Shown piece by piece: positions 4,030 to 25,040 of a stretch of DNA of 32,317 nt. The stretch is taken from NCBI GenBank assembly GCA_028693155.1, contig JAQUVY010000015.1, positions 1-32,317 on the forward strand, written 5' to 3'. The stretch's first letter is position 1; every line of letters begins with the position of its first letter. The translations under genes and the position numbers were made by a program. Source of the DNA: Eubacteriales bacterium (GTDB lineage: Bacteria; Bacillota; Clostridia; Christensenellales; UMGS416). Under the pieces are notes generated by a model, which was not told the DNA's origin, made no database searches, and was given only the letters and a program-made list of their open reading frames with translations.

Positions 4030-6066
4030 ATGGATCTTCTGCCAACGGGAAAGTTTAAGGACGTGTTTTCCGCCCAGGGCAACCGCCTGGTGCGCCATTT
4101 TGACGCCGAGACCATGTGGATTGAGGCGTGGGGGGCGAACAGCCTGCGCGTGCGCGCCACCAAGCAGGCCGAAATGGGCGAGATGGACTGGGCGCTCACC
4201 GAGACGCCCGCCGCCTGCGCCGCCGTCATCGACATTCAAGAGCGCTTCGCCACCATCACCAACGGCCGGATCACCGCCCGCGTCTCCGCCGGCGGCCAGA
4301 TCACCTTCACCAACCAAAAGGGCGAGGTGCTGCTGGATGAATACATGCGCAACCGCCTGGACGTGATGGCGCCCAACTGCTCGGCGCTGGAGATCGAGGC
4401 GCGGGAATTCAAGCCCATTTTGGGCGGGGATTATACCCTGAGCGTGCGCTTTGAGTCCGACCCCGGCGAAAAGCTCTACGGCATGGGGCAGTATCAGCAG
4501 CCGCTGCTCAACCTCAAGGGCTGCGAGCTGGAGCTGGCGCACCGCAACTCTCAGGCCAGCGTGCCCTTTTGCCTCTCCAGCCTGGGCTACGGCTTTTTGT
4601 GGAACAACCCCGGCGTGGGGCGCGTGACCTTTGGCCGCAACCTCACCACCTGGCAGGCCGTCTCCACCAAAATGCTGGATTACTGGATCACCGCCGGCGA
4701 CACCCCCGCGCAAATTGAGGAGGCCTACGCCGCCGTGACCGGCACCGTGCCCATGATGCCCGATTACGCCATGGGCTTCTGGCAGTGCAAGCTGCGCTAC
4801 CAGACCCGCGAGCAGCTAATGAACGTGGCGCATGAATACAAGCGCCGCGGGCTGCCCATTTCGGTCATCGTGGTGGATTTCTTCCACTGGCCCAACCAGG
4901 GCGACTGGAAATTTGACGAGGAATACTGGCCAGATCCCGATGGCATGATCGCCGAGCTCAAGGAAATGGGCATTGAGCTGATGGTGTCCATTTGGCCCAC
5001 GGTGGATCAAAACAGCGAGAACTACCAGACCATGCTGAACAAGGGCTATCTCATCCGCACCGACCGCGGCCTGCGCGTGGCCATGGATTTCATGGCCAAC
5101 ACCATCCACTACGACGCCACCAACCCCGCCGCCCGTCAGTTTGTGTGGGACACGGCCAAGAAAAATTATTACGACCGGGGCATCAAGGTGTTCTGGCTGG
5201 ACGAGGCCGAACCCGAATACAGCGTGTACGACTTTGATCTGTATCGCTACCACATGGGACCCAACGTGCAGATCGGCAACGTTTACCCCGTGATGTACGC
5301 CAAAACCTTCTTTGACGGCATGAAGGCCGAGAGGCAGGAGAACATCATCAATCTGCTGCGCTGCGCCTGGGCCGGTTCGCAAAAATACGGCGCTCTGGTG
5401 TGGTCGGGCGACATCCACTCCAGCTTTGCCAGCCTGCGCAACCAGTTTGCCGCCGGCCTGAACATGGGCATTGCCGGCATTCCCTGGTGGACAACCGACA
5501 TCGGCGGCTTCCACGGCGGCGTGCCTGCCGATCCCGCCTTCCAGGAGCTGTTGGTTCGCTGGTTCCAATATGGCGCGTTTTGCCCGGTCATGCGTCTGCA
5601 CGGCGATCGCGAGCCCCATGTGCCCGGCGTGGGCCCCAGCGGCGGCGGCAAGCTCATGAGCGGCGGCCCCAACGAGGTGTGGTCCTACGGCGACAAGGCG
5701 CTGGAGGTATGCAGCAAATTCATGTTCCTGCGCGAGCGGATGAAGCCCTACATCACCCGCCTGATGCAGGACGCCCACGAAAAGGGCTCCCCGGTCATGC
5801 GGCCGCTGTTCTATGAGTTCGCCTCCGACGCCCGCAGCTGGGAGATCGAGGATGAATACCTCTTTGGGCCGGATGTGCTGGTCGCTCCCGTCATGGAGGC
5901 GGGCATGACGCACCGTCAGGTCTATTTGCCGGCCGGCGCGCGCTGGATGGATGTGAACACCCTCGTCCAGTACGACGGCGGGCAGACCGTCGAGGTGGAG
6001 ACTCCCATTGAAAACCTGCCCGTCTTCCAACGCGTGGGCAGCGATCTGGGCTTCAGCTGGAACTAA
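4030..6066 (+). CDS. Glycoside hydrolase family 31 alpha-glycosidase
   Basis: A 678-residue family GH31 enzyme, which removes alpha-linked glucose or xylose from the non-reducing end of oligosaccharides by a retaining mechanism. The N-terminal beta-sandwich (about 1-235) is followed by the catalytic barrel starting near PDYAMGFWQCKLRY. The nucleophile is predicted as Asp391 in FWLDEAEPE and the acid/base as Asp461 in WSGDIHSSF. The WWTTDIGGF and MRLHGDREP motifs also fit the family. The lack of a signal peptide points to a cytoplasmic enzyme acting on imported sugars. Strong ribosome site AAGGGAGGG. Single gene with its own promoter and terminator. An alpha-xylosidase is as likely as an alpha-glucosidase; the sequence alone does not settle it. 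Confidence 0.93.
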   Translation: MDLLPTGKFKDVFSAQGNRLVRHFDAETMWIEAWGANSLRVRATKQAEMGEMDWALTETPAACAAVIDIQERFATITNGRITARVSAGGQITFTNQKGEVLLDEYMRNRLDVMAPNCSALEIEAREFKPILGGDYTLSVRFESDPGEKLYGMGQYQQPLLNLKGCELELAHRNSQASVPFCLSSLGYGFLWNNPGVGRVTFGRNLTTWQAVSTKMLDYWITAGDTPAQIEEAYAAVTGTVPMMPDYAMGFWQCKLRYQTREQLMNVAHEYKRRGLPISVIVVDFFHWPNQGDWKFDEEYWPDPDGMIAELKEMGIELMVSIWPTVDQNSENYQTMLNKGYLIRTDRGLRVAMDFMANTIHYDATNPAARQFVWDTAKKNYYDRGIKVFWLDEAEPEYSVYDFDLYRYHMGPNVQIGNVYPVMYAKTFFDGMKAERQENIINLLRCAWAGSQKYGALVWSGDIHSSFASLRNQFAAGLNMGIAGIPWWTTDIGGFHGGVPADPAFQELLVRWFQYGAFCPVMRLHGDREPHVPGVGPSGGGKLMSGGPNEVWSYGDKALEVCSKFMFLRERMKPYITRLMQDAHEKGSPVMRPLFYEFASDARSWEIEDEYLFGPDVLVAPVMEAGMTHRQVYLPAGARWMDVNTLVQYDGGQTVEVETPIENLPVFQRVGSDLGFSWN

Positions 6067-11933: not shown

Positions 11934-12554
11934 TCAGTCGCCCAGCACCTGAGAATTGCCGTATGCCCCGCCCTCAAAGGGATAGGTCTGGTCGGCAACG
12001 GTGCCATTCAGCGTCAAAAACTCGATTTGAAGCTGGCAATAGAGCGGATCGCTGCCCAGCTGACCCGGGTCCGCTTCGTTGTTGCTCAGGGAAGCCACCA
12101 CCGTGCGGTTCACATAAGGGCAGGCCGCCAAATCGCCCAGCAGCAGCTTGAGATCCGCATAGTTGGTGTACGCGGTCAGCGTCACCGACTCCACCGAGCC
12201 GTACTCCAGCGGCGTGCTCTGAATCTGGAAATCCAGGTCATAGCTGGCGCACAGCGGCTCGGCGATGCGCCGCAGCTCATCCAGCACCAGGGGCTGGTCA
12301 AACGCCGGCAGCACGCTGCTCAGCGTAGTCTGCGCGCTGCTTTGCAGCGCTTCCAGTTCGCTGCGCTGCTGCTGCACGATTTTTTCCTTCTGCTCCAGCA
12401 CCTGAAGGGTTTGCTTTGCCCGGTCAAGTTCATCCTGCGCGGCGGTCAGCTTGGTTCGGAAACCCACATAAAAAAACTGGTAATATAAGAACCCGGCTGC
12501 CGCGATGAGCAACACCAGCAGCAGCGCCGTTTCCCGTTTGGTAATCTTCGTCAT
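11934..12554 (-). CDS. pilO: Type IV pilus inner-membrane protein PilO
   Basis: A 206-residue protein with one N-terminal membrane helix (about 9-30), a coiled coil (about 38-75; long run of Q, E, L and K) and a C-terminal ferredoxin-like domain, the layout of PilO. With PilM and PilN it forms the alignment subcomplex linking the cytoplasmic motor to the pilus base. Its ATG overlaps the pilN stop by 4 bases. It is the last gene of the operon, followed by a terminator. Identification rests on layout and neighbours more than on motifs. Confidence 0.85.
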   Translation of the reverse strand: MTKITKRETALLLVLLIAAAGFLYYQFFYVGFRTKLTAAQDELDRAKQTLQVLEQKEKIVQQQRSELEALQSSAQTTLSSVLPAFDQPLVLDELRRIAEPLCASYDLDFQIQSTPLEYGSVESVTLTAYTNYADLKLLLGDLAACPYVNRTVVASLSNNEADPGQLGSDPLYCQLQIEFLTLNGTVADQTYPFEGGAYGNSQVLGD

Positions 12555-13171
12555 TGGCCGTCACTCCCTTCCGCAGTAGCCGCCCCGGTTTCGGCGTTCC
12601 CCTGCGCTGCGGCTGCATAGGTCATGGTCATGGTAAACATGCGATAATTCACCGCCACATCGCCCTCCTGCGTGGGCTGCTTTTGCTCGCTTTGCGTGGT
12701 ATCGACACTTACCGCGGCGAATGCGCCGCTGCGGCGCAGCTTGGCCGCCATGGCCGCCACCCGTCCGTCGTCGGGCGCGGTTCCGGTGATGGTCATTTTC
12801 TCATAATCTCCGTGTAAGGTCAGCAGCGTAATCTCCTGCGGCGCGCAGTCTTCCAGCGTTTGCAAAACACCGTTCAGAATGACCGGATCCTCCCGAAATG
12901 CGGAAACCATGGCCAGCTGCCCTTGAATGGCCTCCATCTGGGCGGTAATGTCGTCAAACTCCTGCTCCACCGACGCATACTGCGCCGCCTGGGTGTCCAC
13001 CATTTTCTTCTCCAGGGAAACGGTCGCCAGCCAACCGTTTGGCACAAGGATGCCCGTCACGCACAGCGCGGCCAGCACCAGCCCCACCGTGGCAAACATC
13101 GCGCCGGTCTTCGCGCCCTGCGAAGGACCCTGCCGCTCCGGCAGCAGGTTAATATCCCGTTTTGGATTCAT
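12551..13171 (-). CDS. pilN: Type IV pilus assembly protein PilN
   Basis: A PilN homologue of about 206 residues. The cytoplasmic tail MNPKRDINLLPE carries the INLLP motif that binds PilM. A membrane helix (about 26-48), a coiled region and a C-terminal ferredoxin-like domain follow (ITLLTLHGDYEKMTITG). The ATG at 13171 is preferred because GGGAGG lies 10 bases upstream. A GTG at 13177 that overlaps the pilM stop would add two residues and cannot be excluded. The extreme C-terminus (AEGSDGQ) is low in complexity. It overlaps pilO by 4 bases. Confidence 0.92.
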   Translation of the reverse strand: MNPKRDINLLPERQGPSQGAKTGAMFATVGLVLAALCVTGILVPNGWLATVSLEKKMVDTQAAQYASVEQEFDDITAQMEAIQGQLAMVSAFREDPVILNGVLQTLEDCAPQEITLLTLHGDYEKMTITGTAPDDGRVAAMAAKLRRSGAFAAVSVDTTQSEQKQPTQEGDVAVNYRMFTMTMTYAAAAQGNAETGAATAEGSDGQ

Positions 13172-13176
13172 GCTCA

Positions 13177-14160
13177 CTACACCTCCCGGAAAAGCGCGGC
13201 AAATGCGCCCGTCATGTCCGCCGTGCTTTGGGGCGCGGCCTGTGCCAGCTCCTCAGCCAGTATACGCACCGGCAGCGCCGGCAGCTTCTGCCTGAGATAT
13301 TGCACCACCCGGGGCGTGGCCTGATCGCCGAAGAAATAGGCCGCGCGCAGCGGAGACTGCGCATGGCGAGAATTCACATAATCGCTCAGGCGGGTGATCT
13401 CGGAAACCACTTCGTCCAGATAAAAGGCGACCCGCCGCCCCAGCGGGTCTTCCGCATTGTTCCAGTCGGCGTGCTCGGCGTTTTTTTGCACCAGCCCGGC
13501 GTCGGTATTCTCTTCCTGGGCAATTGTGCCGTACAAATCAAACATACCGTTGGGCAGCATGCGGCTGATAAAAAATTGCCCTGCGCTGTAGGCCAAAATG
13601 CTAACCCCATCCCCCGTCATCTGCACGGCCAGATAATCGCGCAGTTCAGGACGCACGCTGCGCATCAGTTTTCCCAGCGCGTTTTCTATCACGTCTACAA
13701 TCTTGACCCGCAGCCCGGCGGCCTTGGCGCACTCCACGGCCTCTTCCACGCGCTGGCGCTGCACCGCCGTCACCATGACCCGCAGGTTTACACTGCCCTG
13801 TTCAGTCGTCTGCTCCTCCACCACGCGGTAGTCGATCACATATTGCTCGGCGCCCATGGGCAGATATCCGGCGATTTCCCCCCGCACATTCTCCCGCAGC
13901 AGCGCGGGAGCCATGTCTGGAAAGGTAAAATAGCGAATGATCGTTTCCCCGCACGACAGACACAGCGCACACTGGGTCGCCGAAATATGCGCGTCCTTAC
14001 GCGCCTGGCGGATGGCCTCAGCCACCAGCGTGGCGCTTTTGACGCGGCTATCCTGCACCACACCCATCATCAGCGGGGCGAAGCCGGTTTGCGCACCGCG
14101 CACCACGCTTACACCATCTGCGCTGATATGCAGGCCCATCAGGTTTTCCTGCTTAATCAC
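13177..14160 (-). CDS. pilM: Type IV pilus assembly protein PilM
   Basis: A 327-residue actin-like ATPase-fold protein (PilM/ComA type) that sits under the membrane and binds the PilN tail. The two-domain actin-like layout fits: an N-terminal strand pair around GLHISADGVSVVRG, CALCLSCGETIIRYF, and a second-domain YLAVQMTGDGVSILAYS phosphate-type loop. The start is GTG at 14160, with GAGGAGG nine bases upstream. It follows the PilX-like gene by 34 bases and runs directly into pilN. Confidence 0.88.
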   Translation of the reverse strand: MIKQENLMGLHISADGVSVVRGAQTGFAPLMMGVVQDSRVKSATLVAEAIRQARKDAHISATQCALCLSCGETIIRYFTFPDMAPALLRENVRGEIAGYLPMGAEQYVIDYRVVEEQTTEQGSVNLRVMVTAVQRQRVEEAVECAKAAGLRVKIVDVIENALGKLMRSVRPELRDYLAVQMTGDGVSILAYSAGQFFISRMLPNGMFDLYGTIAQEENTDAGLVQKNAEHADWNNAEDPLGRRVAFYLDEVVSEITRLSDYVNSRHAQSPLRAAYFFGDQATPRVVQYLRQKLPALPVRILAEELAQAAPQSTADMTGAFAALFREV

Positions 14161-14194: not shown

Positions 14195-15577
14195 TCATTT
14201 CTCGGTTACGCCGCTGCGCTGCCCCAAAAACTCTCCCAGGGGCAGGGTGACTCTTCCGCCCGCGCCCCCGCCCAGGGTCTGAGAATTGGGCTTGGGCGCG
14301 TCGCCTGGCAGCGCGGCAATGCGCGCGTAAAAGGCCTCGGCCGCCTTGGATGACGTCTCGTCGAAATTCACGTTCATCACATGGTCGGTGTCGTTTTCCA
14401 GCGTTTCTCCACAAAGCAGCTGGCCATTTACGCCATACTCTCCCTTATGATCCTGCTCCAGCGTAATATCCTCCTGGGCAAAGGCGATCATGTGCGCGTC
14501 CGTTTTGGCTCCGGTGATTTCAAGATCGCCTTCGCAGTAAAGAAACACATAATTTCCCGGTCCGTTTTTTTCCGCGTCCGTATCGTAAAAAATATCACCG
14601 CCTGCAAAGATCATCAAGCCCGCCGTGTTGTTCTGGTTGGCCGGAACGCCCTTCACCGTTACGTCTCCCGTAACAAACAGCATCTTCCCGCCCATTTTAT
14701 AGCCCGTATCCACGGTGAAATCGCCGTCGTAAAACAAGATGGTATTGGCCGGGTTTTCAATAATGGCCTTTTGCCGGCCGCGGTTGCCGCTGATGACGGC
14801 AAAGCCGGGCAGGGACGCACCGTATTGCTGAATATAGCTGACGATGCCGCGTTTCCACAGCCCGCCGGACAGATCCGTCACACTCATGCTGCCGCTGTTA
14901 TCTTGGGCGATATAGTCGCCGATCCCCGCGGTGGCGTAGTTGGTTCTGGCTTGCCGGGAAATGGTCATTCCCGCGTCTGACCCCAGCACCACATCTCCGC
15001 TTTCCACATAAAACGACCCCGACAAATTATCTGCCCCGCCTTGCCCCATGACGATGGCGCAGCTGCCAAAGCCGCCGCCGCCCACCGTGCTTAAGGGGAG
15101 CCGCCGCACCGCCAGCGTCGCCTGCGCCGTGCGGCCGCCCAGCGTGGTGTCGGTGGTCGCCGTCACGGTGTACACGCCCTCTGTGCCTTGGGCAAGCGCC
15201 GTGTAGGCCGTGGGCGGTGTAATGGTCACCAGCGCCGCGTAGCGGCTGTCCAGCATATCGCGGGCGGCTTGGGCGATCTGGGCAAAAAACTGCTCATCGG
15301 TGGTCGTTTGGTCGGGGCGGGAAGCGGGCGAAGCGTTTGCCGCGGTCACCCAGACATCGTATTTTTCAACGGCGGCGCGCCGCAGCGCATCCACCGCCGC
15401 GTTTACCGCCGCTTCCGCGTCGTAATACTCGCCTTCGTAATCCTTAAGCTTGGCCGCCCGTTGGGCGTTGACTGTTGTCACCGATAGGATGGACAGGCCA
15501 AGAATGCTGAGGATCACCATCGCCAGCATGACATTGAGCAGCGCGGCACCGCGCCTGCCGTCTCTTTTCTTGTTCAT
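14195..15577 (-). CDS. PilX-like large minor pilin, possible tip adhesin
   Basis: A 460-residue protein. The N-terminus has a prepilin-like shape: basic leader, Gly10, then AALLNVMLAMVILSILGLSI. The residue at mature position 5 is Asn15 rather than the usual Glu. After a pilin-type helical stalk (to about 160) comes a large C-terminal part (about 165-420), rich in short GD(F/V)-x-V repeats (GDVVLGS, GDFTVDT, GDVTVKG, GDIFYDT, GDLEITG) that look like rungs of a right-handed beta-helix, resembling PilX/DUF7305-type proteins. It probably sits at the fibre tip as an adhesin or initiator; this is inference. Strong ribosome site GGGAAGGAGG. Placed between the minor pilins and pilM. Confidence 0.78.
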   Translation of the reverse strand: MNKKRDGRRGAALLNVMLAMVILSILGLSILSVTTVNAQRAAKLKDYEGEYYDAEAAVNAAVDALRRAAVEKYDVWVTAANASPASRPDQTTTDEQFFAQIAQAARDMLDSRYAALVTITPPTAYTALAQGTEGVYTVTATTDTTLGGRTAQATLAVRRLPLSTVGGGGFGSCAIVMGQGGADNLSGSFYVESGDVVLGSDAGMTISRQARTNYATAGIGDYIAQDNSGSMSVTDLSGGLWKRGIVSYIQQYGASLPGFAVISGNRGRQKAIIENPANTILFYDGDFTVDTGYKMGGKMLFVTGDVTVKGVPANQNNTAGLMIFAGGDIFYDTDAEKNGPGNYVFLYCEGDLEITGAKTDAHMIAFAQEDITLEQDHKGEYGVNGQLLCGETLENDTDHVMNVNFDETSSKAAEAFYARIAALPGDAPKPNSQTLGGGAGGRVTLPLGEFLGQRSGVTEK

Positions 15578-15597: not shown

Positions 15598-16029
15598 TTA
15601 CCGCAGGGTCAGCCGGGTGGTCACCGCGTCGCTGCCCAGAGTCCCGCGCACGGTGACCTGCACAGACTTAGGCGTGCCGGCGTCGTACTCCACCTCCGGG
15701 ACAAACACCGCTACGCCCTGCGCCACAGTGGTCGTGCTTGTCCCCTGCCGACGAATCAGCGTTTCGTCCTGCAGGGTATATGTGATGTCGTCAATCAGCA
15801 AAGATTGATCCGCGCCCACGCTCACCGCGTGGCTGGCGCACGCTCGCACATCCTTGGAAACGTTGGCCATGACCAGACGCACCGTATCCAGCTCGCCGGT
15901 CACGGCGCTCACGCCCTCATAGGAGCGCAGGCCGCTGGAGATCAGCGCATAGCTGGCGGCCACCACAAGCACCGCAATGCCCATTGCCAGGATCAGCTCC
16001 ACCAGGGTAACTCCGCGCTTTTTCTTCAT
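15598..16029 (-). CDS. Minor type IV prepilin (PilW/GspJ-like)
   Basis: A 143-residue prepilin. Class III leader MKKKRG is cut before VTLVELILAMGIAVLV, with Glu at mature position 5. A hydrophobic helix and a small beta-rich head follow (LLIDDITYTL, VEYDAGTPKSVQVTVRG). It overlaps the upstream minor prepilin by 4 bases and precedes the PilX-like gene by 20. Such minor pilins prime fibre assembly. Size and position suggest the PilW/GspJ role, but subtype assignment is approximate. Confidence 0.85.
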   Translation of the reverse strand: MKKKRGVTLVELILAMGIAVLVVAASYALISSGLRSYEGVSAVTGELDTVRLVMANVSKDVRACASHAVSVGADQSLLIDDITYTLQDETLIRRQGTSTTTVAQGVAVFVPEVEYDAGTPKSVQVTVRGTLGSDAVTTRLTLR

Positions 16030-16826
16030 TCACCCACCCCCGCGACCAAAAACACATCCGAATACTCGGCCAGACGCTCCGTACCCGTCTGGCCGCGGTA
16101 TACGCTCACCGTCGCCTTTACCAGCGTCTCCTGCAGCTCACTGCTCTCCAACGTGTTGAGCAGATACGTCGAAGCCTGCGTCACCGAGAAACGATCGCTT
16201 TGCCCGGGCGCACACACCACGCTGGCCTTCATGCTGCCCGAAAAGGTGAGGGGGATCACCGCCCCACCGCTATAATTCTGGCCAAACACCAACGCCAGCA
16301 TGTTTGCGGGCGCCTCTCCGTGAAGTGTGGCCGCCGCAGCGCCGCCCCGCGTCATGGTCACCGCGTACGCTCCGCCCGCGCAGCTGACGGATACCCCGGT
16401 AACCCCCTGGGCAGACAGCGTTTTTCCGTCGGGCCCGGCCAAATACGCGCAGGTTCCCGCCGTGGCGTCGGTATAAATAAACAGATGCAGATAATCCCAC
16501 TGGGCGTCATCGGGCGGATGACCCTGCGGGCGGATCTGCACCTCATACCAAAAGGTGTCGGCAGAATTTTGGCGCACCTGGGAAACGGAATATGCATTGC
16601 GGCCGCCCTGTGTATCCCGCGCCAGCAGCGACTGATAATCGCCGCACGCCATCCCCTCCAGCAGCCCCTGCGCGGCCAGCGCCGCGTCGGTCGTCTTCTG
16701 AGAAACCGCCGCCGTGCGCGCCGAGGAGGCATACAAACTCAGCAACGGAATGGCAAGAATCGCCAAAACCGCCAACGCAACCATCACTTCCACCAGCGTC
16801 ATGCCGCGGTTGTTTCCATGCTTCAT
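16026..16826 (-). CDS. Minor type IV prepilin (PilV/GspI-like)
   Basis: A 266-residue prepilin with a short leader MKHGNNRG cut before MTLVEVMVALAVLAILAIP; Glu13 is mature residue 5. The head domain is larger than usual (about 200 residues) and beta-rich, with cysteines near CAYLAG, SCAGG and VCAPG that could form a disulfide. It starts 21 bases after pilD and is coupled to the next prepilin by a 4-base overlap. The TLVEVMVA signature is typical of PilV/GspI. Confidence 0.85.
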   Translation of the reverse strand: MKHGNNRGMTLVEVMVALAVLAILAIPLLSLYASSARTAAVSQKTTDAALAAQGLLEGMACGDYQSLLARDTQGGRNAYSVSQVRQNSADTFWYEVQIRPQGHPPDDAQWDYLHLFIYTDATAGTCAYLAGPDGKTLSAQGVTGVSVSCAGGAYAVTMTRGGAAAATLHGEAPANMLALVFGQNYSGGAVIPLTFSGSMKASVVCAPGQSDRFSVTQASTYLLNTLESSELQETLVKATVSVYRGQTGTERLAEYSDVFLVAGVGE

Positions 16827-16847: not shown

Positions 16848-17621
16848 TCAGATCAGCAGGCTCAAATACCACCGGATCACGGACGGCCCAAACAAAAAGG
16901 CCGCCACTGTACCCATCGCCAAAAACGGCCCGAAGGGCATATACGCCCCCCGCTTGAGCCGACCGGTCGCCAAACCCACGCCGCCAACCGCACCGCCCAG
17001 CACCACGGCCAGCAAAAGCGCCAGCAGCGTTGCCTGCCAGCCCAGAAAAAGCCCGGCGAACGCCATCATCTTGACATCGCCCAAGCCCATACCCTCTTTT
17101 TTATACACCAGCCGACCCAGGCCATCCACCGCCAGCAGCGGCAGCGCACCGGCAGCCGCACCCAGCAGGCCGTCCCACCAGGGCGCGCGCACCAGCTGAT
17201 ACGCCAGCCCGCAGATCCGTCCGATCAGCACCAGCCCGTTGGGGATGATGCTTTCATCCAGATCAATAAAGGCGATGATCACCAGCAGGGAAACCAGCAC
17301 CAGCCCGGCCAGGCACTGCCAGGTGACGCCGCAGACGGCATACACCGCCAAATACAGCAGGCAGGTGAGGCTTTCCACCAGGGCATACCGCCCCGAATAG
17401 CGCGCGCCGCAATGGCGGCAGCGGCCGCGGGTGAAGAGCCAGGTGAACACCGGGATCATATCCAAAACGCCCAGGCGATGGCCGCAGGTGCCGCAGGCCG
17501 ACGCGGGTCGCACCACCGACTTGCCCTGGGGAATGCGATAAATGCACACGTTGAAGAACGAACCCATGACCAGCCCCAGCAGGCCGATCAAAACATAAGT
17601 ATAGGCAGTCATAAAATCCAT
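16848..17621 (-). CDS. pilD: Prepilin peptidase / N-methyltransferase PilD
   Basis: A 257-residue membrane enzyme that removes the leader from all prepilins of this operon and methylates the new N-terminus. It begins with the GSFFNVCIYRIP motif, then two zinc-binding CxxC pairs (CGTC, CRHC) in the cytoplasmic loop. The two catalytic aspartates lie in FIDLDE and GLGDVK, the aspartyl-protease signature of the family. About eight membrane helices. The ribosome site (GGGAAC) is weaker than that of pilin. Separated from the pilin gene by 104 bases with two strong hairpins, probably lowering its output relative to pilin. Confidence 0.95.
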   Translation of the reverse strand: MDFMTAYTYVLIGLLGLVMGSFFNVCIYRIPQGKSVVRPASACGTCGHRLGVLDMIPVFTWLFTRGRCRHCGARYSGRYALVESLTCLLYLAVYAVCGVTWQCLAGLVLVSLLVIIAFIDLDESIIPNGLVLIGRICGLAYQLVRAPWWDGLLGAAAGALPLLAVDGLGRLVYKKEGMGLGDVKMMAFAGLFLGWQATLLALLLAVVLGGAVGGVGLATGRLKRGAYMPFGPFLAMGTVAAFLFGPSVIRWYLSLLI

Positions 17622-17725: not shown

Positions 17726-18103
17726 TTAGCTGATGGCGTTCTTGTTGGTGACGGAAGCCAAGCCGTTGGCGTCGATGGCGATACGGCCCAGCACCTTGGC
17801 GGGGTCGATGTCGGTGTCAACCTTGGGGGCCAGATCGCCCAGATCGGTGTTCAGATCGGCCAGGGTGGTATAGCTGGTCAGAGCGGTAGCGTCGATATCC
17901 GTGGCGTTCAGCGCGTTGTACACGTTGATGGCGTTGGCATACTCGGCGGCGGCGGCTACCTGCGTGGCAATCTCAGCGCGCTGGCTGATGCCCACAAAGT
18001 TGGGGATGGCGACGGCGGCCAGGATGGCCAGGATGGCAATCACGACGATCAGTTCGATCAGCGTGAAGCCCTTGCGGTTCTTGTTCTTCTTCTGGTTGTT
18101 CAT
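17726..18103 (-). CDS. pilA: Major type IV pilin
   Basis: A 125-residue prepilin with a basic 12-residue leader ending in KG and mature N-terminus FTLIELIVVIAILAILAAVA (Glu5 present). The mature pilin is only 113 residues, very acidic and Ala/Asp/Thr-rich. It has no cysteine, so the usual C-terminal disulfide loop is missing; calcium or packing may stabilise the head (inference). Strong ribosome site AAGGAGAGGG. The gene is insulated by hairpins on both sides (18131-18152 and 17647-17712), consistent with higher and separately stable expression as the main subunit. Placed between the platform protein and the prepilin peptidase. Confidence 0.93.
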   Translation of the reverse strand: MNNQKKNKNRKGFTLIELIVVIAILAILAAVAIPNFVGISQRAEIATQVAAAAEYANAINVYNALNATDIDATALTSYTTLADLNTDLGDLAPKVDTDIDPAKVLGRIAIDANGLASVTNKNAIS

Positions 18104-18159: not shown

Positions 18160-19371
18160 TTAAAACGACACAGCGTTATATATGCCAAACATGGGCAGCA
18201 CCACCGAAAGCACGATGACCAGCACCAGCACACCCATCAGGGCAATGATGACCGGCTCTAAAATGGCCAAAATGCGCGCCATGGCGGAATCGGATTCTTC
18301 CTCATAAAACTCCGCCGCCTGTCTCAGCATATCGTCCAGCGTACCGGACTCCTCACCCATACGCACCATGTGGATCACCATCATGGGGAAAATATCGATC
18401 TCCTGCAGAGACGCCGCGATGCCCCGTCCCTTGCTCACCTCGTTGACCACCTGCTCCATTTTTTCCGAAATAAAGAGGTTGCCCACGTTGCGCCCGGCGA
18501 TGGACAGCGCGTTGGTGATGGAAACGCCGGCGATGGACAGCCCCGCCAGGCTGCGGGTAAAGCGGGCGGAAAATACCTTGACGATCTGCTTGCCGATGAG
18601 CGGCAGGCGCAGGGTCAGCCGGGCGTTAAACCGTCGGCCGGGCGTGCTGCGGGCAAACACAACGACACCCGTCACAAGCGCGATGAGGGCGATCACCACC
18701 GCCACCACATTGGTGGTCAAAAAGTTGCTGATGCTCAGCATGACCTGGGTCAGCTTGGGCAACGCCGCGTTGGAGGTGGCATACAGGTCGGCAAAGCGCG
18801 GCACGATGACCGTCATCAAAAAGAGCACCACCCCCACGGCCAGCACCAGCAATGCCGTGGGATAAGCCAAAGCGGACTTGACGCGGTTGACGATCTTATA
18901 TTCCTTGGTCAGGGTCAGCCCCACCTGGGCAAGCGCCGCCTCCAGCGTGCCCGAGGCCTCGCCCGACTCCACCATGCTCAAAAACAGCTCGGGAAAGCGC
19001 TTTTCATGATCGCGAAACGCCGCGGACAGGCTGCGCCCCTGCTGAATTTTTTCCTGCACGTCCATGAGCACCTTTTTCAGCTGCTTGTGCTCGGTCTGGC
19101 TGCGCATGATCTCCAGCGCCTGCACAATGGGCACCCCCGCGTGCAGCACCGCCGCCGCCTGGTTGCAAAACACCGCCAGCGCCTTGCCAGGAATCCGAAC
19201 GCGCAGTTCGATATCCCTATGGCTGGAGGGGCTGTCCAGCGCCTGAATCTGCACCGGAAAAAAGTCCTTTTGCCGAATCAGCGCGGTCACGGCCCTGCGA
19301 TCGACCGCCTCTACGAAGCTCTCGATGCGGTCTCCCTGCAAATTCTTCGCAGTATATCGGAATCTTGGCAT
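18160..19371 (-). CDS. pilC: Type IV pilus platform protein PilC
   Basis: A 403-residue polytopic inner-membrane protein of the PilC/GspF family, the platform on which PilB and PilT act. A short N-terminal domain (FRYTAKNLQGDRIES) leads to two repeated T2SSF domains (about 70-190 and 270-395). Each has the family's glycine-rich turn (GVPIVQALEIM, GVSITNALSIAG) and MVESGEASGTL / MVRMGEESGTL motifs, followed by membrane helices. Length and motif spacing are standard. AAGGAG precedes the ATG; pilT ends 12 bases upstream. Confidence 0.95.
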   Translation of the reverse strand: MPRFRYTAKNLQGDRIESFVEAVDRRAVTALIRQKDFFPVQIQALDSPSSHRDIELRVRIPGKALAVFCNQAAAVLHAGVPIVQALEIMRSQTEHKQLKKVLMDVQEKIQQGRSLSAAFRDHEKRFPELFLSMVESGEASGTLEAALAQVGLTLTKEYKIVNRVKSALAYPTALLVLAVGVVLFLMTVIVPRFADLYATSNAALPKLTQVMLSISNFLTTNVVAVVIALIALVTGVVVFARSTPGRRFNARLTLRLPLIGKQIVKVFSARFTRSLAGLSIAGVSITNALSIAGRNVGNLFISEKMEQVVNEVSKGRGIAASLQEIDIFPMMVIHMVRMGEESGTLDDMLRQAAEFYEEESDSAMARILAILEPVIIALMGVLVLVIVLSVVLPMFGIYNAVSF

Positions 19372-19383
19372 GCTTCTTCTCCT

Positions 19384-20436
19384 TTACAGTGCATTTTTGC
19401 GCACGTACTGGGCATCGGTGCTGTAAAGCACCGCATCGTCCAGCGTGATCATTCTGCGCCGGTACAGCTCCAAAATGGAACGATCCATGGGGATCATGCC
19501 CTGCGCCGCGCCGGTGGCGATGGCGTTGTTGATCTGCGGGGTCTTGTTCTCGCGGATCAGGTTGCGGATGGCGTCATTGACCGCCATAATTTCCACCGCT
19601 ACCTGCCTGCGGCCGTCCACCGTGGGGATCAGCTGCTGCGAGACCACCGCTTGCAGCGTCATAGACAGCTGCGTGCGGATCTGCTGCTGCTGCGCCGGGG
19701 GGAACACGTCGATGACGCGGTCGATGGTCTTGGCGGCGCCCACCGTATGCAGCGTGGAAAACACCAGATGGCCGGTTTCCGCGGCGGTCAGCGCAATGGA
19801 AATGGTTTCCAGATCGCGCATCTCGCCCACCAGAATAATATCCGGGTCTTCCCGCAGCGCGGCGCGCAGCGCCGAGGCAAAGCTGCCCGAATCCATGCCG
19901 ATCTCCCGCTGGTTGACAATGCAGCGGTCGTGCCGGTGCAGGTACTCGATGGGATCCTCCAGCGTGATGATGTGCGCCGAGCGGTTTTTATTGATAAAGT
20001 CGATCAAGGCGGCCAGCGTGGTGGATTTGCCCGAGCCCGTCGGCCCGGTCACCAGCACCAGTCCCCGGCTCAGGTTGGCAAGCTCCGCCACCTGCGGGGG
20101 CATGTTCAGCTCTTGCAGGGACTTAATGCGCGTGGATACGCGCCGCAGCGCCAGCGCCACTGCGCCCCGCTGTTTAAACGCGTTCATTCGGTAGCGGGAG
20201 AGCCCCGGGATGGACACAGCCAGATCCAGCTCGCCCTGCTGCTCAAAGCGGGCAAACTGTTCCTGGCTCATCAGCTCCCGCGCCACGGCCAGCGTTTCGG
20301 CGGGCTGCGCCGCCACCGTCCCCACCCGCTCCAGGCGGCCGCCCACCCGCAGCACCGGCGGAATGCCCACCGTGAGGTGAATATCCGAAGCGTCTCGCTC
20401 CTCAGCCTGCCTGACGCAGGCCATCCAATCTATCAT
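19384..20436 (-). CDS. pilT: Type IV pilus retraction ATPase PilT
   Basis: A 350-residue hexameric ATPase that depolymerises the pilus and powers twitching. SDIHLTVG opens the N-terminal PAS-like domain, then Walker A GPTGSGKST with Lys137, the Asp box HIITLEDPIEY, Walker B DIILVGEMRD and the His box TGHLVFSTLHT. The C-terminal AIRNLIRENKTPQI is PilT-type. The frame is open to 20535, but the ATG at 20436 has AAGGAG nine bases upstream and matches usual PilT length. It follows pilB by 16 bases. Its presence predicts dynamic, retractable pili. Confidence 0.95.
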   Translation of the reverse strand: MIDWMACVRQAEERDASDIHLTVGIPPVLRVGGRLERVGTVAAQPAETLAVARELMSQEQFARFEQQGELDLAVSIPGLSRYRMNAFKQRGAVALALRRVSTRIKSLQELNMPPQVAELANLSRGLVLVTGPTGSGKSTTLAALIDFINKNRSAHIITLEDPIEYLHRHDRCIVNQREIGMDSGSFASALRAALREDPDIILVGEMRDLETISIALTAAETGHLVFSTLHTVGAAKTIDRVIDVFPPAQQQQIRTQLSMTLQAVVSQQLIPTVDGRRQVAVEIMAVNDAIRNLIRENKTPQINNAIATGAAQGMIPMDRSILELYRRRMITLDDAVLYSTDAQYVRKNAL

Positions 20437-20452
20437 ATCCGTGCGCTCCTTA

Positions 20453-22135
20453 TCAGCCGTTATCCTGGCTAAAGGCCACCGCAGTGGCATCGGCCAACGA
20501 AATACGCTCCTGCGCCAGCAGCTGACTACAGGCATTTTTCAGCGTGGTCATCCCCTGGGCGATGGCATGATCCCGCAGCTCATCGGTCGTCGCGCCGCGG
20601 TGGATCATCTCCCGCAGCTCGCGGTCGACGGGCATCACCTCGTGTACCGCCATGCGCCCGCGATAGCCGGTGCCGTTGCAGGCCTGGCAGCCCCGGCCGT
20701 GATAGACCACCGCGTCGGCGGGCAGCCCAAAAGCCGCCAGCTCTTCGGGGCGGCAGGACGCCTCCTCCCGGCAGCTGGGGCATATCTTGCGCACCAGACG
20801 CTGGGCAATGACGCCCACCAGCGCGCTGGAAAGCATGTAGGGCGCCACGCCCATGTCCATCAAGCGCGCCACGGTGGCCGCGGCGTCGTTGGTGTGGATG
20901 GTGGACAGCACCAAATGACCGGTAATGGCGGCGCGAATGGCAATTTCCACCGTTTCGCGGTCGCGGATCTCCCCGATCATGATGATGTCGGGATCCTGTC
21001 GCAAAATGGAGCGTAGGCCGACGGCAAAGTCCAGCCCGGCCTTGGTGTTCACCTGCACCTGGTTCAGCCCCGCGATAGTATACTCCACCGGGTCCTCAAC
21101 GGTGATGATGTTGCGATCCTCGGCGTTGAGCTCGTTGAGCATGGTGTACAGCGTGGTGGATTTCCCCGAACCGGTGGGGCCGGTCACCAGGATAATCCCG
21201 TGGGGGTTCTTCAGCAGCTCGTCAAACTTATGCAGATTTTCCTCGGTAAAGCCCAGCTCGGACTTGGGCAGGAGGAACGAGTTTCGGTCCAGAATGCGCA
21301 GCACCGCCTTCTCGCCAAAAATGGTGGGGAGAATGGAGATACGCACATCGGCCGCGTGCCCCAATATATTCAGCTCGCACCGGCCGTCCTGGGGCAGGCG
21401 CTTTTCGGCGATGTTCAAATTGCTCATGATCTTGATGCGCGTCAGCATGGCTGAATGGGCGTTGCGCGGCGTGGTCAACACCTGCACCAGCGACCCGTCC
21501 AGGCGCATACGCACCCGCACCTCATCTTCCTGAGGTTCAATATGGATATCCGAAGCGCCCGCGCGCACGGCTCGCTCCAGCAAAGAATCGATCAGGCGAA
21601 CGATGAGCGCGTTCCCCACCTCATCCCGCCCCTCGGACAGCTGCGCCGCCTGTTCCACATCGCTTTCGCGCTGAAACTCCTCAATGGCGCGCTCGGCGGC
21701 CACGTTGCCGTAGAGATCATCAATGGCATGGTCGATCATCTGGCGATTGCTGGCCAGCGGCTCCACTTCCATCTGTGAGCTCATGCCCACGTCCTGAATG
21801 GCCGCCATATCCAGCGGATCCTCCATGGCGACCCAAAGCTTGCCCGCCTCCACGCGCACCGGCACCAAATGGTTGCGCCGCGCCATGCTCTGGGGCACCA
21901 GCTCGATCATGCTTTTGGAGATCACAACGGCGGCCAGGTCGATAAACCGCACACCGCCCTGGCGGACGATGACCTCCTCGATCTGCTGCTGAGTCACCCA
22001 GCCCCGCTCCACCAGAATAGGCCCCAGCTTTTGACCTTCACTCTGCTTCTGGCAGCTTATGGCCTCTTCCAGCTGCTCGGGGCTAATCAAGCCAGCTTCC
22101 AGCAACATTTCGCCTAAAAATTTCCGTGTGGCCAT
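20453..22135 (-). CDS. pilB: Type IV pilus extension ATPase PilB
   Basis: A 560-residue GspE/PilB ATPase that drives pilin polymerisation. The N-terminal MshEN-type domain (FLGEMLLEAGLISPEQLEEAI, then VRFIDLAAV) may bind nucleotide or c-di-GMP in this family. The core has SDIHIEPQ, Walker A GPTGSGKST (Lys325), NIITVEDPVEY, Walker B DIIMIGEIRD and the His box TGHLVLSTIHT. A four-cysteine zinc site follows (CPSC, CQAC). First gene of the 11-gene pilus operon, 38 bases downstream of an extended -10 promoter. No RXXR-type c-di-GMP motif can be assigned with confidence. Confidence 0.96.
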   Translation of the reverse strand: MATRKFLGEMLLEAGLISPEQLEEAISCQKQSEGQKLGPILVERGWVTQQQIEEVIVRQGGVRFIDLAAVVISKSMIELVPQSMARRNHLVPVRVEAGKLWVAMEDPLDMAAIQDVGMSSQMEVEPLASNRQMIDHAIDDLYGNVAAERAIEEFQRESDVEQAAQLSEGRDEVGNALIVRLIDSLLERAVRAGASDIHIEPQEDEVRVRMRLDGSLVQVLTTPRNAHSAMLTRIKIMSNLNIAEKRLPQDGRCELNILGHAADVRISILPTIFGEKAVLRILDRNSFLLPKSELGFTEENLHKFDELLKNPHGIILVTGPTGSGKSTTLYTMLNELNAEDRNIITVEDPVEYTIAGLNQVQVNTKAGLDFAVGLRSILRQDPDIIMIGEIRDRETVEIAIRAAITGHLVLSTIHTNDAAATVARLMDMGVAPYMLSSALVGVIAQRLVRKICPSCREEASCRPEELAAFGLPADAVVYHGRGCQACNGTGYRGRMAVHEVMPVDRELREMIHRGATTDELRDHAIAQGMTTLKNACSQLLAQERISLADATAVAFSQDNG

Positions 22136-22172
22136 AATCGCGGTTCTGCCTCGCTAATTAATTTGATGTTTT

Positions 22173-22181
22173 AGTATACCA
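22173..22181 (-). promoter_or_regulatory. Extended -10 promoter of the pilus operon
   Basis: Minus-strand TGG-TATACT with -10 at 22173-22178 and no recognisable -35. It is the only promoter seen for the 10-kb operon, so an activator is plausible. Confidence 0.65.
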
Positions 22182-22257
22182 CATTATCTACATTCGTGGG
22201 CTGTTTTTCTGCATAAATATCCGTTTTCCCGCTCATTTTTTGAGAAATATCGGTTCT

Positions 22258-22821
22258 TTATCCGCCCAAGCCGATGACATCGGCGCACTCCCGCATTCCC
22301 TCCAGACAATCGACAATCAAGTCATCCACCGTGACCCCCAGCATCCGCGCTCCGTTTTCGATGACATCCCGATTGACCCCGGCGGCAAAGCTTTTCGCTT
22401 TGAACTTCTTCTTGACCGATTTGGCCTCCATGTCCAGCACGCTGTGCGAGGGTCGCATCAGCGCGGCGGCATGGATCAGCCCCGTGAGCTCGTCGATGGC
22501 ATAAATGGTCTTTTCCATCTGGGAGAGCGGCTCCACATCGCTGCACAGACCCCAGCCGTGGCTGCACACGGCGCGGATGATCTCCTCCTCCGCCCCGGCC
22601 TCGCTGAGCAGCTCCCGCGCCTTGGCGCAGTGCTGCTGGGGTCAGCGCTGGTAGTCGATATCGTGCAGCAGCCCGACCACGCCCCACAGCTCCTCATCCT
22701 GCCCGGCCTTGCGCGCCATGTGGCGCATACAGCCCTCCACAGCCAGCGCGTGCTGGCGCAGTGCTTCGTTATCGTTATACTTTTCCCACAGCCCAATGGC
22801 TGCTTCCCTGCCTAACACCAT
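22258..22821 (-). pseudogene. HD-domain phosphohydrolase broken by an in-frame TGA
   Basis: Reading through one stop gives a 187-residue HD-superfamily hydrolase. Residues 1-59 include the metal ligands His24 and His53-Asp54 (LLHDID). After TGA at codon 60 (22642-22644) the same frame continues with the helices expected downstream (CAKARELLSEAG, VCSHGWGLCSD, TIYAIDELTGLI, SFAAGVNR). No base is lost or gained. The codon sits where related proteins carry an aromatic residue after DYQR, so TGG to TGA is the simplest change. Promoter, ribosome site (GGAGGGG) and all other residues look intact, so the break is recent, a sequencing error, or tolerated by read-through. Other genes here show no sign of TGA recoding. 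Confidence 0.85.
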
Positions 22822-22869
22822 TTTCCCCTCCGGGCGGCGCAAATTTTTCTCTTTTCGCCACGAAATCTA

Positions 22870-22878
22870 TGGTAAAAT
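22870..22878 (+). promoter_or_regulatory. Extended -10 promoter of the GH36 operon
   Basis: TGG-TAAAAT with -10 at 22873-22878. It overlaps the -10 of the divergent HD gene by two bases, so the two promoters probably compete for polymerase. Confidence 0.6.
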
Positions 22879-22906
22879 TATATCATAACCAAACAACGCA
22901 AGTCAA
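22877..22906 (-). promoter_or_regulatory. Promoter of the HD-domain gene
   Basis: Minus strand: -35 TTGACT (22901-22906), 18 bases, -10 TATAAT (22877-22882) with extended TGA. Strong, and apparently intact although the gene is broken. Confidence 0.7.
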
Positions 22907-22922
22907 ATAAATGGAGGGTGCT

Positions 22923-25040
22923 ATGGAACTGTTTAATTTCTGTGAAAACGGCATTTATGTTGTCATGGAACGCGACGAACACGACGAGGTCAAATTTCTC
23001 CACTTTTCCTCGCTGCCCTTGTGCCGCAGGGATCTTATCCCGGAGGTTTCCCCGTTTGACCCCATGGTGGGCTTCAAGCTGGCGGAGGTAATGGTTTCAG
23101 GTGAGGATCGGCCGGGCGAGCGTCACGGCAACAAATACATCATCACCGCCCCCGGCTACCGCCTGAAGTACCAAAGCCACAGCGACACCCGCAACGCCCT
23201 GGGCCGCAAGCTGGAAATCGTCACCTATGACGCGCCCACCGGCATTGAAGTGACCCGCCATTTTCAGTTTTTTGACGGTATTCCCGTGGTGCGCTCCTGG
23301 ACCGACGTGACCAACCGCGGCGACGAAACGCGCACGCTTGAATATGTGGCCAGCTTTACCATCACCGGCGTAACCAAGGAAGGTCTGCTGCCCCGGGACA
23401 AGCGCATGACCGTTTCCATCCCCCACAACTCCTGGTGCCGCGAGCTGCAGTGGCAGACCTACACCATGGAGGAGCTGGGTCTGGGCGTATCCCGGGACTT
23501 TGAGCTGTCCTCCAAGGTCATTTCGGCCAGCAACGCCGGCAACTGGTCGGCAAAGGAATACCTGCCCATGGGCGTGCTCACCAACACCGAGTGCGGCACC
23601 CAGCTGTTCTGGCAGATTGAGCACAACGGCTCCTGGCATTGGGAGATCAGCGATGAGGTGGGGCATTTTTATTTGCAGCTGAGCGGCCCCACCGAGATCG
23701 AATCGCACTGGAGCCGCGACCTGCACCCCGGCGATACCTTCACGTCGGTTCCCGCCGCCGCGGGCGTGGTCACCGGCAGCATGGATGACGCCATGGACGC
23801 GCTGACCCTTTACCGGCGCGCCATTCGCCGCCCCAACGAGGACGACGAAAAGCTGCCCATCATTTTCAACGATTACATGAACTGCCTGTGGGCCGACCCC
23901 ACCACCGAAAAAGAGCTGCCACTCATTGACGCTGCCGCCGCCGCGGGCTGCGAGTATTATGTGGTAGACGCGGGCTGGTATGCCGAAGGATATTGGTGGG
24001 ACAACGTGGGCGAATGGCTGCCCTGCGACAAGCGCTTCCCCGGCGGCCTGCGCGAGGTGTTTGACTATATCCGCTCCAAGGGCATGATCCCCGGGCTGTG
24101 GCTGGAGATCGAAGTGATGGGCACCAAGTGCCCCAAGGTCGCCCAAACCGACGACAGCTGGTATTTCCTGCGGCACGGCAAGCGCGTGCACGACCGTTCC
24201 CGCTATCAGCTGGACTTCCGCAACCCTGCCGTGGTGGCGCACGCCACCGAGGTCATCGACCGCTGCGTCAACGAGTACGGCATGGGCTACATCAAAATGG
24301 ACTACAACATTGAGCCGGGCATCGGCACCGAAACCAACGCCGACAGCGTGGGCGACGGGTTGCTAGGGCATCAGCGCGCCTACTTAAAATGGCTGGATGA
24401 CATGTTTGCCAAATATCCCGATCTGGTTATCGAAAACTGCTCCAGCGGCGGTCTGCGCATGGACTACGCGCTGCTGCAGCGCTGCCCCATCCAGTCCACC
24501 TCGGATCAGACCGACTATCTGCACTTTGCCTCCATCGCGGCCAACGCCCCCACCGGCGTGACGCCCGAGCAGGCCGCCGTGTGGAGCTATCCGCTGACCG
24601 AAGGCGACCGGGAAGAAGTGGTGTTCAACATGGTGAACGCCCTGCTGCTGCGCGTACACCAGAGCGGTCAACTGGCGCAGATCAGCCCCGAGCGCTCGGC
24701 GCTGGTGAAGGAGGGCTTGGATGTGTACCGTTCCATCCGCGCCAACCTACGCCAGGGCTTGCCCTTCTGGCCGCTGGGCTTGTCCCATTTTTCGGACGAG
24801 TGGGTGTCGCTGGGTATGAAGTGCGGCAAGGTGAGCTATGTGGCCGTGTGGCGTCGGGACAGCCATGACAGCACCTGCGTGCTGCCCATCGCCCATCTGA
24901 AAGGGAAGGACGCGGAGGTGGAATGCATCTACCCCACCTTCCATCAGGAGCCCACCTATTGGAACGCCGCGCAGGGGCACCTCACCGTAAAACTGAGCGT
25001 CTGCCGCTCGGCTCGTCTGTTCCGCATAACCGAAAAATAA
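22923..25040 (+). CDS. Glycoside hydrolase family 36 alpha-galactosidase
   Basis: A 705-residue GH36 enzyme that hydrolyses alpha-galactosides such as raffinose or melibiose. The N-terminal beta-supersandwich (to about 300) precedes the barrel starting near LPIIFNDYMNCLW. YYVVDAGWY and IPGLWLEIEVMG are family signatures; the nucleophile is Asp460 in YIKMDYN. The SDQTDY segment (527-532) carries the expected acid/base Asp. No signal peptide, so intracellular. The ATG at 22923 is chosen over 22911 because GGAGGG lies at 22913-22918. It forms an operon with the SGNH esterase 14 bases downstream. Exact specificity (galactose versus N-acetylgalactosamine) is not resolved. Confidence 0.93.
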   Translation: MELFNFCENGIYVVMERDEHDEVKFLHFSSLPLCRRDLIPEVSPFDPMVGFKLAEVMVSGEDRPGERHGNKYIITAPGYRLKYQSHSDTRNALGRKLEIVTYDAPTGIEVTRHFQFFDGIPVVRSWTDVTNRGDETRTLEYVASFTITGVTKEGLLPRDKRMTVSIPHNSWCRELQWQTYTMEELGLGVSRDFELSSKVISASNAGNWSAKEYLPMGVLTNTECGTQLFWQIEHNGSWHWEISDEVGHFYLQLSGPTEIESHWSRDLHPGDTFTSVPAAAGVVTGSMDDAMDALTLYRRAIRRPNEDDEKLPIIFNDYMNCLWADPTTEKELPLIDAAAAAGCEYYVVDAGWYAEGYWWDNVGEWLPCDKRFPGGLREVFDYIRSKGMIPGLWLEIEVMGTKCPKVAQTDDSWYFLRHGKRVHDRSRYQLDFRNPAVVAHATEVIDRCVNEYGMGYIKMDYNIEPGIGTETNADSVGDGLLGHQRAYLKWLDDMFAKYPDLVIENCSSGGLRMDYALLQRCPIQSTSDQTDYLHFASIAANAPTGVTPEQAAVWSYPLTEGDREEVVFNMVNALLLRVHQSGQLAQISPERSALVKEGLDVYRSIRANLRQGLPFWPLGLSHFSDEWVSLGMKCGKVSYVAVWRRDSHDSTCVLPIAHLKGKDAEVECIYPTFHQEPTYWNAAQGHLTVKLSVCRSARLFRITEK

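Follow-up and report, generated by a model that had tools for sequence, protein, structure and literature searches.

Which subunit of a type IV pilus would make contact with the outside is asked here for a single operon, whose last prepilin gene encodes an oversized protein, P0001, without the glutamate usually found at position 5 of the mature pilin. A first-pass annotation of this DNA had proposed a tip adhesin. The window (the whole stretch of 32,317 nucleotides analysed here) carries the operon on its minus strand, in the order pilB, pilT, pilC, major pilin, pilD, I-like, J-like, P0001, pilM, pilN and pilO-like (Table 1).

Table 1. Pilus genes of the window and parts of P0001, in window positions
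Feature	Position	Strand	Basis
PilB-like ATPase (T2SSE + MshEN)	20453..22135	(-)	domain matches
PilT-like ATPase (T2SSE); annotated start runs into pilB and is perhaps set too far upstream	19384..20535	(-)	PilT by size and order
Platform protein PilC (T2SSF)	18160..19371	(-)	domain match
Major pilin candidate, FTLIE, Glu5 present	17726..18103	(-)	'major' by position and motif
Prepilin peptidase PilD (Peptidase_A24)	16848..17621	(-)	domain match
I-like (PilV/GspI-type) minor prepilin, MTLVE, Glu5 present	16026..16826	(-)	NCBIfam matches below cut-off and position
J-like (PilW/GspJ-type) minor prepilin, VTLVE, Glu5 present	15598..16029	(-)	weak NCBIfam match and position
K-slot (PilX/GspK-like) minor prepilin P0001, 460 aa, ATG start	14195..15577	(-)	ORF; same-slot homologues in six other genomes
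Class III leader peptide MNKKRDGRRG, P0001 residues 1-10, predicted cleavage after Gly10	15548..15577	(-)	sequence
Asn15 codon of P0001, mature position 5, usual place of Glu	15533..15535	(-)	sequence
Pilin moiety of P0001, residues 11-162: long helix (model 7-82), beta strands (117-159)	15092..15547	(-)	homologues, model
C-terminal head of P0001, residues 163-430, ~270 residues	14288..15091	(-)	models
Solenoid-like rungs, P0001 residues 280-373	14459..14740	(-)	motif pattern, head model, fold comparison
PilM (PF11104, 63.2 bits)	13177..14160	(-)	Pfam
PilN (PF05137, 33.9 bits)	12551..13177	(-)	Pfam
PilO-like, no relevant NCBIfam match	11934..12554	(-)	position and gene order only

The last prepilin of the operon

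P0001 begins with MNKKRDGRRGAALLNVMLAMV and shows the features expected of a type IV pilin, a hydrophilic leader ending in Gly followed by about 20 hydrophobic residues. Cleavage is predicted after Gly10 (MNKKRDGRRG/AALLNVMLAMVILSILGLSIL, the slash marking the cleavage site), giving a mature N-terminus AALLN. The first-pass annotation had read Asn in place of Glu5 at this site, which is borne out, the three other prepilins of the operon keeping their Glu5. This residue is usual, not universal, in type IV pilins, and its absence is expected of K-type subunits in operons whose other pilins retain it. Two further K-type characters are observed: P0001 is the biggest pilin (460 aa versus 266, 143 and 125) and the last of the minor pilin cluster, with pilM next. 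PilY1 was searched in the same genome, a MAG in 175 contigs, and gave no match, a weak negative since no control genome scored over the cut-off either.

The operon is flanked by genes for a GH31 glycosidase (window 4030-6066, plus strand) and a Melibiase-type alpha-galactosidase (22911-25040, plus strand), a setting that hints at the use of plant or dietary oligosaccharides. The label of gut bacterium attached to this organism by the first-pass annotation found no support in this analysis.

Missing Glu5 in related operons

The place of P0001 in the operon is hereafter called the slot. As a single query P0001 matched 7 of 61 genomes, its own included. Contig scans confirmed none of 89 candidate stretches as relatives with this sequence and 1 of 51 with a two-row alignment. 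Because direct searches with P0001 yielded few relatives, the wider family rests on profile A2, seven rows covering the N-terminal ~170 residues and built from Glu5-less proteins, which matched 53/297 genomes of the order (E 0.001) and 68/291 of the class (E 1e-6). Prepilins were located by a motif scan, in which matches inside PilD, PilN and other window ORFs were set aside; three prepilins that it overlooked (in G053 the slot gene and the I-like gene, in L091 a Glu5 pilin) were read directly.

The slot gene follows I-like and J-like pilins with Glu5 in all seven homologous operons, and its own position 5 is Asn in the window and G001, Met in G003 and G053, Thr in G004 and G027 and Leu in G039. 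It is directly followed by pilM in five of them (window, G004, G027, G039 and G053), while the contig ends after it in G001 and a second slot gene precedes the contig end in G003. The proteins measure 454 to 863 aa, apart from one of 433 aa truncated by a contig end. The best A2 matches provided 52 further loci (L024-L075). Forty-six of these lack Glu5 (42 called by script; L054, L059, L061 and L074 by eye), five are ordinary Glu5 pilins (L042, L043, L045, L046 and L056) and one is unreadable (L041), a count biased because A2 was built from Glu5-less proteins and several loci share one genus. In the Glu5-less pilins read from these loci and the seven operons, position 5 holds a hydrophobic residue, Tyr or Thr; Asn is confined, among them, to the window and its sister genome G001, of the same genus. 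A weak A2 match in G031 was rejected as a slot gene and corresponds to the Glu5 major pilin of that genome.

A less biased sample consists of the 9 of 61 genomes with a PilM match over the N-terminal half of the model (G000, G004, G008, G027, G031, G039, G040, G053 and G060), matches confined to the later half being excluded because they resemble other actin-like proteins. The pilin cluster includes a Glu5-less pilin in seven of the nine, and the slot gene directly precedes pilM in five. In G008 and G060 the Glu5-less pilin is smaller (370 and 279 aa) and stands first in the row, before two Glu5 pilins. Around pilM in G031 and G040 none was seen, ORFs overlapped by longer ones being hidden there. 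An A2 match without a PilM match was obtained for G001 and G003, whose contigs end, and for G035, where a Glu5-less pilin of 197 aa was found by eye before T2SSF- and ATPase-like genes. The missing Glu5, initially taken as a peculiarity of P0001, is therefore usual for the slot (7/7 operons, 46/52 in the biased count, 7/9 PilM-chosen genomes), and exceptions to the rule of order and size exist.

Several other arrangements were encountered. The T4P cluster of G060 includes a 1621-residue pilin that keeps Glu5 (L096 6266-11128, RRGFTLVELLIAV), beside the smaller Glu5-less one. Second slot copies occur in G003, G092 and three tapirin genomes. Neighbouring pairs were seen in L012 (6313-8376 and 8477-8818, contig-end cut), G092 (contig C27, 9147 and 10711) and L090 (1432-3411 and 3812-5737); such pairs would allow alternative pilus tips. 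Very large frames of 1089 to 1957 aa with a similar Glu5-less N-terminus belong to other families of the order (L027-L029, L031-L034, L036, L039 and L044). Finally, a T2SSF platform protein and a T2SSE/PilT-type ATPase form a second locus in one genome (L017 7285-11038 and L001, contig C109, ~19284-23037), together with small single-helix pilin-like ORFs without the usual Gly before the helix; one of them matches DUF4860 (66.2 bits) and one carries Ala, then LYLME. This locus looks like a divergent second pilus-like system.

Family assignment and domains of the relatives

The best NCBIfam match of P0001 is GspK (NF037980, residues 9-96), with 25.5 bits for a cut-off of 130. No match at E 1 was obtained with PilX_N (PF14341, cut-off 25.5 bits) for P0001 or for L003 of the same genus, and none with the tapirin model (NF051896, cut-off 600 bits) for P0001 at E 1 or in its genome; scanning 6 genomes for PilX_N at E 0.01 likewise gave nothing. 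Five of the six homologues of P0001 from other genomes match PilX_N at E <0.002, one over the cut-off, as do eight of ten further members of the class and order, three over the cut-off. These ten were picked from L024-L075 for a match over most of the model and a long frame, and nine have a Glu5 prepilin nearby on the same strand (the exception is L024). Heads of the relatives include Bactofilin (L016, over the curated cut-off) and choice-of-anchor A (L014, over cut-off) and, among the ten, DUF7305 in four (L052, L053, L055 and L058) and pAdhesive_15, a putative ice-binding-like adhesive domain, in two (L053 and L055), again over cut-off. P0001 shares with these Clostridia-like PilX_N proteins a related Glu5-less N-terminus, adjoining Glu5 pilins and, going by its model, a solenoid-type head; however, it has no recognised DUF7305, pAdhesive_15 or Bactofilin domain itself.

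PilX of Pseudomonas is the K subunit of the HIJK minor pilin complex. Like K subunits of this complex (GspK/PulK, PilK), P0001 is large, Glu5-less and located beside I-like and J-like pilins. It differs from them in its score far under the GspK cut-off, in the lack of a PilY1 match in its genome and, possibly, in its domain order: the model, of low confidence, places the large domain after the pilin sheet, whereas the bulky alpha-helical domain of GspK is described as inserted in the sheet (PMC5207764). Another likeness is with PilB and PilC of Streptococcus sanguinis, reported as pilins onto which adhesive modules are grafted and which probably belong to the tip complex of a monoderm T4P (PMC9934059, PMC10191384). 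There, unlike in our operon, it is the small PilA that lacks Glu5; PilC, large and modular, keeps this residue and bears a module of lectin type (PMC9934059). The equation of a Glu5-less pilin with a large adhesive tip subunit, on which the first-pass annotation relied, has therefore to be qualified.

A solenoid-like head

Motifs of the form GD[LIVF]-x-[hydrophobic] start at residues 194, 285, 304, 327 and 350 of P0001, with a related QEDI at 368; the four from 285 to 350 are spaced by 19-23 residues. Residues 166-460 thus contain five strict motifs, where 5000 composition shuffles average 0.40 (p ~0.0002, the smallest value obtainable from this test). The first-pass annotation had pointed to repeated GD(F/V)-x-V rungs in a large head, and the repetition holds, in a head of some 270 residues. 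The same shuffle test revealed a rung excess in the heads of L012, L014 and L016 (p 0.0002) and a weaker one in L003 (p 0.003), and none in those of L015 and L013 (p 0.28 and 0.45).

AlphaFold models of the head alone and of the full-length protein both fold residues 280-373 into five rungs of two short strands (280-283/287-290, 299-302/306-309, 322-325/329-332, 343-348/352-354 and 362-367/371-373). Over these rungs, ten-residue blocks reach a pLDDT of 61-87 when the head is modelled alone and of 46-84 when the full protein is. With only two sequences available for alignment, both runs have a poor mean pLDDT (56.2 and 53.9). VIA-align 2 ranked ice-binding beta-helix proteins at the top for the head model (Z 8.0, 132 aligned residues, 3.4 A) and a bactofilin at rank 11 (Z 6.9, 96 aligned, 2.7 A), Z values under or near 8 possibly reflecting just a common arrangement. 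Foldseek returned nothing at E 0.001 with the head model, nor with the full-length model, which is unfit for a fold search. Neither Foldseek nor VIA-align 2 listed a tapirin structure for the head model, which does not argue against a tapirin fold. The beta-helix-like head of the first-pass annotation, once submitted to structure prediction, thus gains modelled two-strand rungs, with low mean confidence and a silent Foldseek search on the other side. A beta-solenoid is supported by the motif pattern and the partly confident model, not proven.

Sequence comparisons of the head were negative. The isolated head had no match to DUF7305, pAdhesive_15 or Bactofilin at E 10, and profile comparisons detected no significant relation to DUF7305-type heads (probability 2.9%), L014/L016-type heads (6.8%) or tapirins (0.2%); the DUF7305 and L014/L016 types match each other poorly too (17.2%). 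Because sequence profiles do not join them, kinship between the head of P0001 and those of its relatives is unproven, and we make no claim of their common descent. Among solved structures, P0001 alone as a sequence query gave one chance match (E 1.8) and profile A2 gave 12 matches at E <=10, the best being an unrelated protein (0.0027), with pilin-type chains no better than 0.93. Fast evolution of the head, considered as a mark of an adhesin, was not seen: same-genus identity is 49.0% over the rungs versus 52.4% over the helix.

Tapirins and the slot

The seven-row profile A1 matches, in the head region and weakly (E 0.073), the structure 4wa0, which was deposited as a 'possible adhesin' and which we take to be a tapirin. 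The N-terminus of L012 also matches the tapirin model (E 1.6e-4), far under the cut-off. Tapirins are reported to attach cells to lignocellulose (PMC9933333, whose reference 7 names cellulose binding in its title). A tapirin search of 291 genomes of the class gave no match, the controls being silent too; among 348 genomes of the phylum 11 matched, three over the cut-off, and the genomes found are presumably Caldicellulosiruptor. The one tapirin neighbourhood read, L090, has ORFs that look like those of a T4P operon (pilB-T-C-D-M-N-O), in which two tapirins with the Glu5-less leaders G/STLIV and G/SVLIV follow a Glu5 pilin. At the same place in a related genome (L091) lies an 897-residue protein that matches PilX_N over the cut-off (29.8 bits), tapirins themselves matching barely (9.8 bits) or not at all. 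The missing Glu5 holds in these two tapirin-type operons as well.

Comparison of 70-residue N-termini brings the slot proteins of the window's order closest to a mixed set of three tapirins and three relatives (E 1.2e-12); I-like pilins reach 1.4e-7, J-like pilins 7.9e-5 and major pilins 1.1e-5. The three tapirins alone give 5.2e-9 with the slot versus 2.3e-6 (I-like), 8.6e-5 (J-like) and 6e-5 (major), and I-like and J-like pilins best match their own two-sequence counterparts (7.1e-14 and 1.5e-13). P0001 and the tapirins (NF051896) are alike in carrying a Glu5-less leader at the 3' end of a pilus operon, after a Glu5 pilin; they differ in the head, whose sequences are unrelated, and lignocellulose attachment is reported for the tapirins. 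Since N-terminus and place agree, tapirins look like occupants of the slot of P0001. It is quite possible, though short of probable, that both share one slot for a Glu5-less tip-capping pilin of monoderm type IV pili, a general socket for interchangeable adhesive heads. Cellulose would then be gripped by tapirins sitting at the pilus tip, and P0001 would be the equivalent adhesin of its lineage. Tapirins were not found named as tip pilins in titles and abstract openings, a coverage that misses most subscription journals and is no proof of novelty.

Proposed role and alternatives

P0001 adds a new and divergent member to a kind of protein already known, an ordinary result for a single gene. We consider it fairly probable that it is a K-type tip-capping minor pilin of a monoderm type IVa pilus with a grafted solenoid head, probably an adhesin. 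This reading derives from the published model in which assembly starts at a tip complex of minor pilins whose cap is a Glu5-less subunit (PMC10191384), and from the adhesive modules described as grafted on monoderm pilins (PMC6916266, PMC9934059, PMC10191384). P0001 fits the capped-tip model except for the polar Asn at residue 5. The leader, the missing Glu5, the operon and the recurrence of the slot are the solid parts of this reading, and the solenoid head is partly established by modelling. Of the tip adhesin first proposed, the position at the tip is supported by slot, size and I/J neighbours, and the adhesin role is plausible by analogy with the domains of relatives.

PilD would cleave P0001 after Gly10, and the I-like and J-like pilins would recruit it in the membrane. 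P0001 would cap the I-J-K initiation complex and so come to lie at the outermost tip of the fibre. As first subunit it would need no Glu5, there being no N-terminus above to neutralise, and its own N-terminus would accept the Glu5 of the next subunit. The putative beta-solenoid, grafted behind the pilin domain, would be bulky enough to favour the tip. It would most likely bind a surface or polymer ligand, to which PilT-driven retraction would then pull the cell.

Against the K-type reading stand the scores of P0001 itself (no PilX_N match at E 1, GspK 25.5 of 130), the head modelled behind the sheet, different from the GspK-type insertion, and the lack of a significant sequence relation of this head to known adhesive heads. 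It is conceivable, if unlikely, that P0001 caps and primes the pilus with a head acting as a purely structural cap (steric lock, wall passage) and binding nothing specifically. GspK, also large and Glu5-less, is discussed in PMC5207764 as acting in initiation and growth arrest, the rungs are nearly as conserved within the genus as the helix, and the heads of L015 and L013, without rung excess, indicate that not every slot protein has the solenoid pattern. However, the wide variation in length of the slot proteins and the domains named adhesive, over cut-off, in some relatives speak against this reading, and the second copies in G003, G092 and the three tapirin genomes would suit alternative tips.

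The claim that only the tip subunit can lack Glu5 has to be softened, since Glu5 mutants are reported to enter compound filaments (PMC4471445). The same source reports P. aeruginosa minor pilins throughout filaments, which speaks against placing these counterparts at the tip only, and the N-terminal domain of the relatives goes by the name of PilX_N in Pfam. It is nevertheless very doubtful that P0001 is an accessory minor pilin of PilX type along the fibre, or a membrane-retained regulator, as its position, its size, the lack of Glu5 and the I-like and J-like neighbours agree with the possible signature of initiating subunits (large, no Glu5, 3' end) that is named for Gram-positive T4P too (PMC5207764), and a head of ~270 residues would project wherever it was built in. 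The Com pilus, whose tip complex consists of four minor pilins and takes part in DNA capture (PMC12153270), lends some precedent to the idea of a DNA-capturing tip subunit of a competence-like pilus, which is highly improbable here: the PilT-like ATPase, PilM and PilN form a T4aP set rather than a comG set.

Under the favoured reading, P0001 as a tip-capping pilin with a probable adhesive head, the interest lies beyond the single gene. T4P-mediated adhesion is described as poorly understood, with monoderms put forward as a group from which to learn about it (PMC6916266). The slot-wide view that includes the tapirins is the part a specialist might find fresh, and the tapirin link, if true, would give the slot a ligand class. 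The slot rule (last pilin, no Glu5, oversized) turns the identity of the adhesive pilin into something that can be tested in uncultured relatives.
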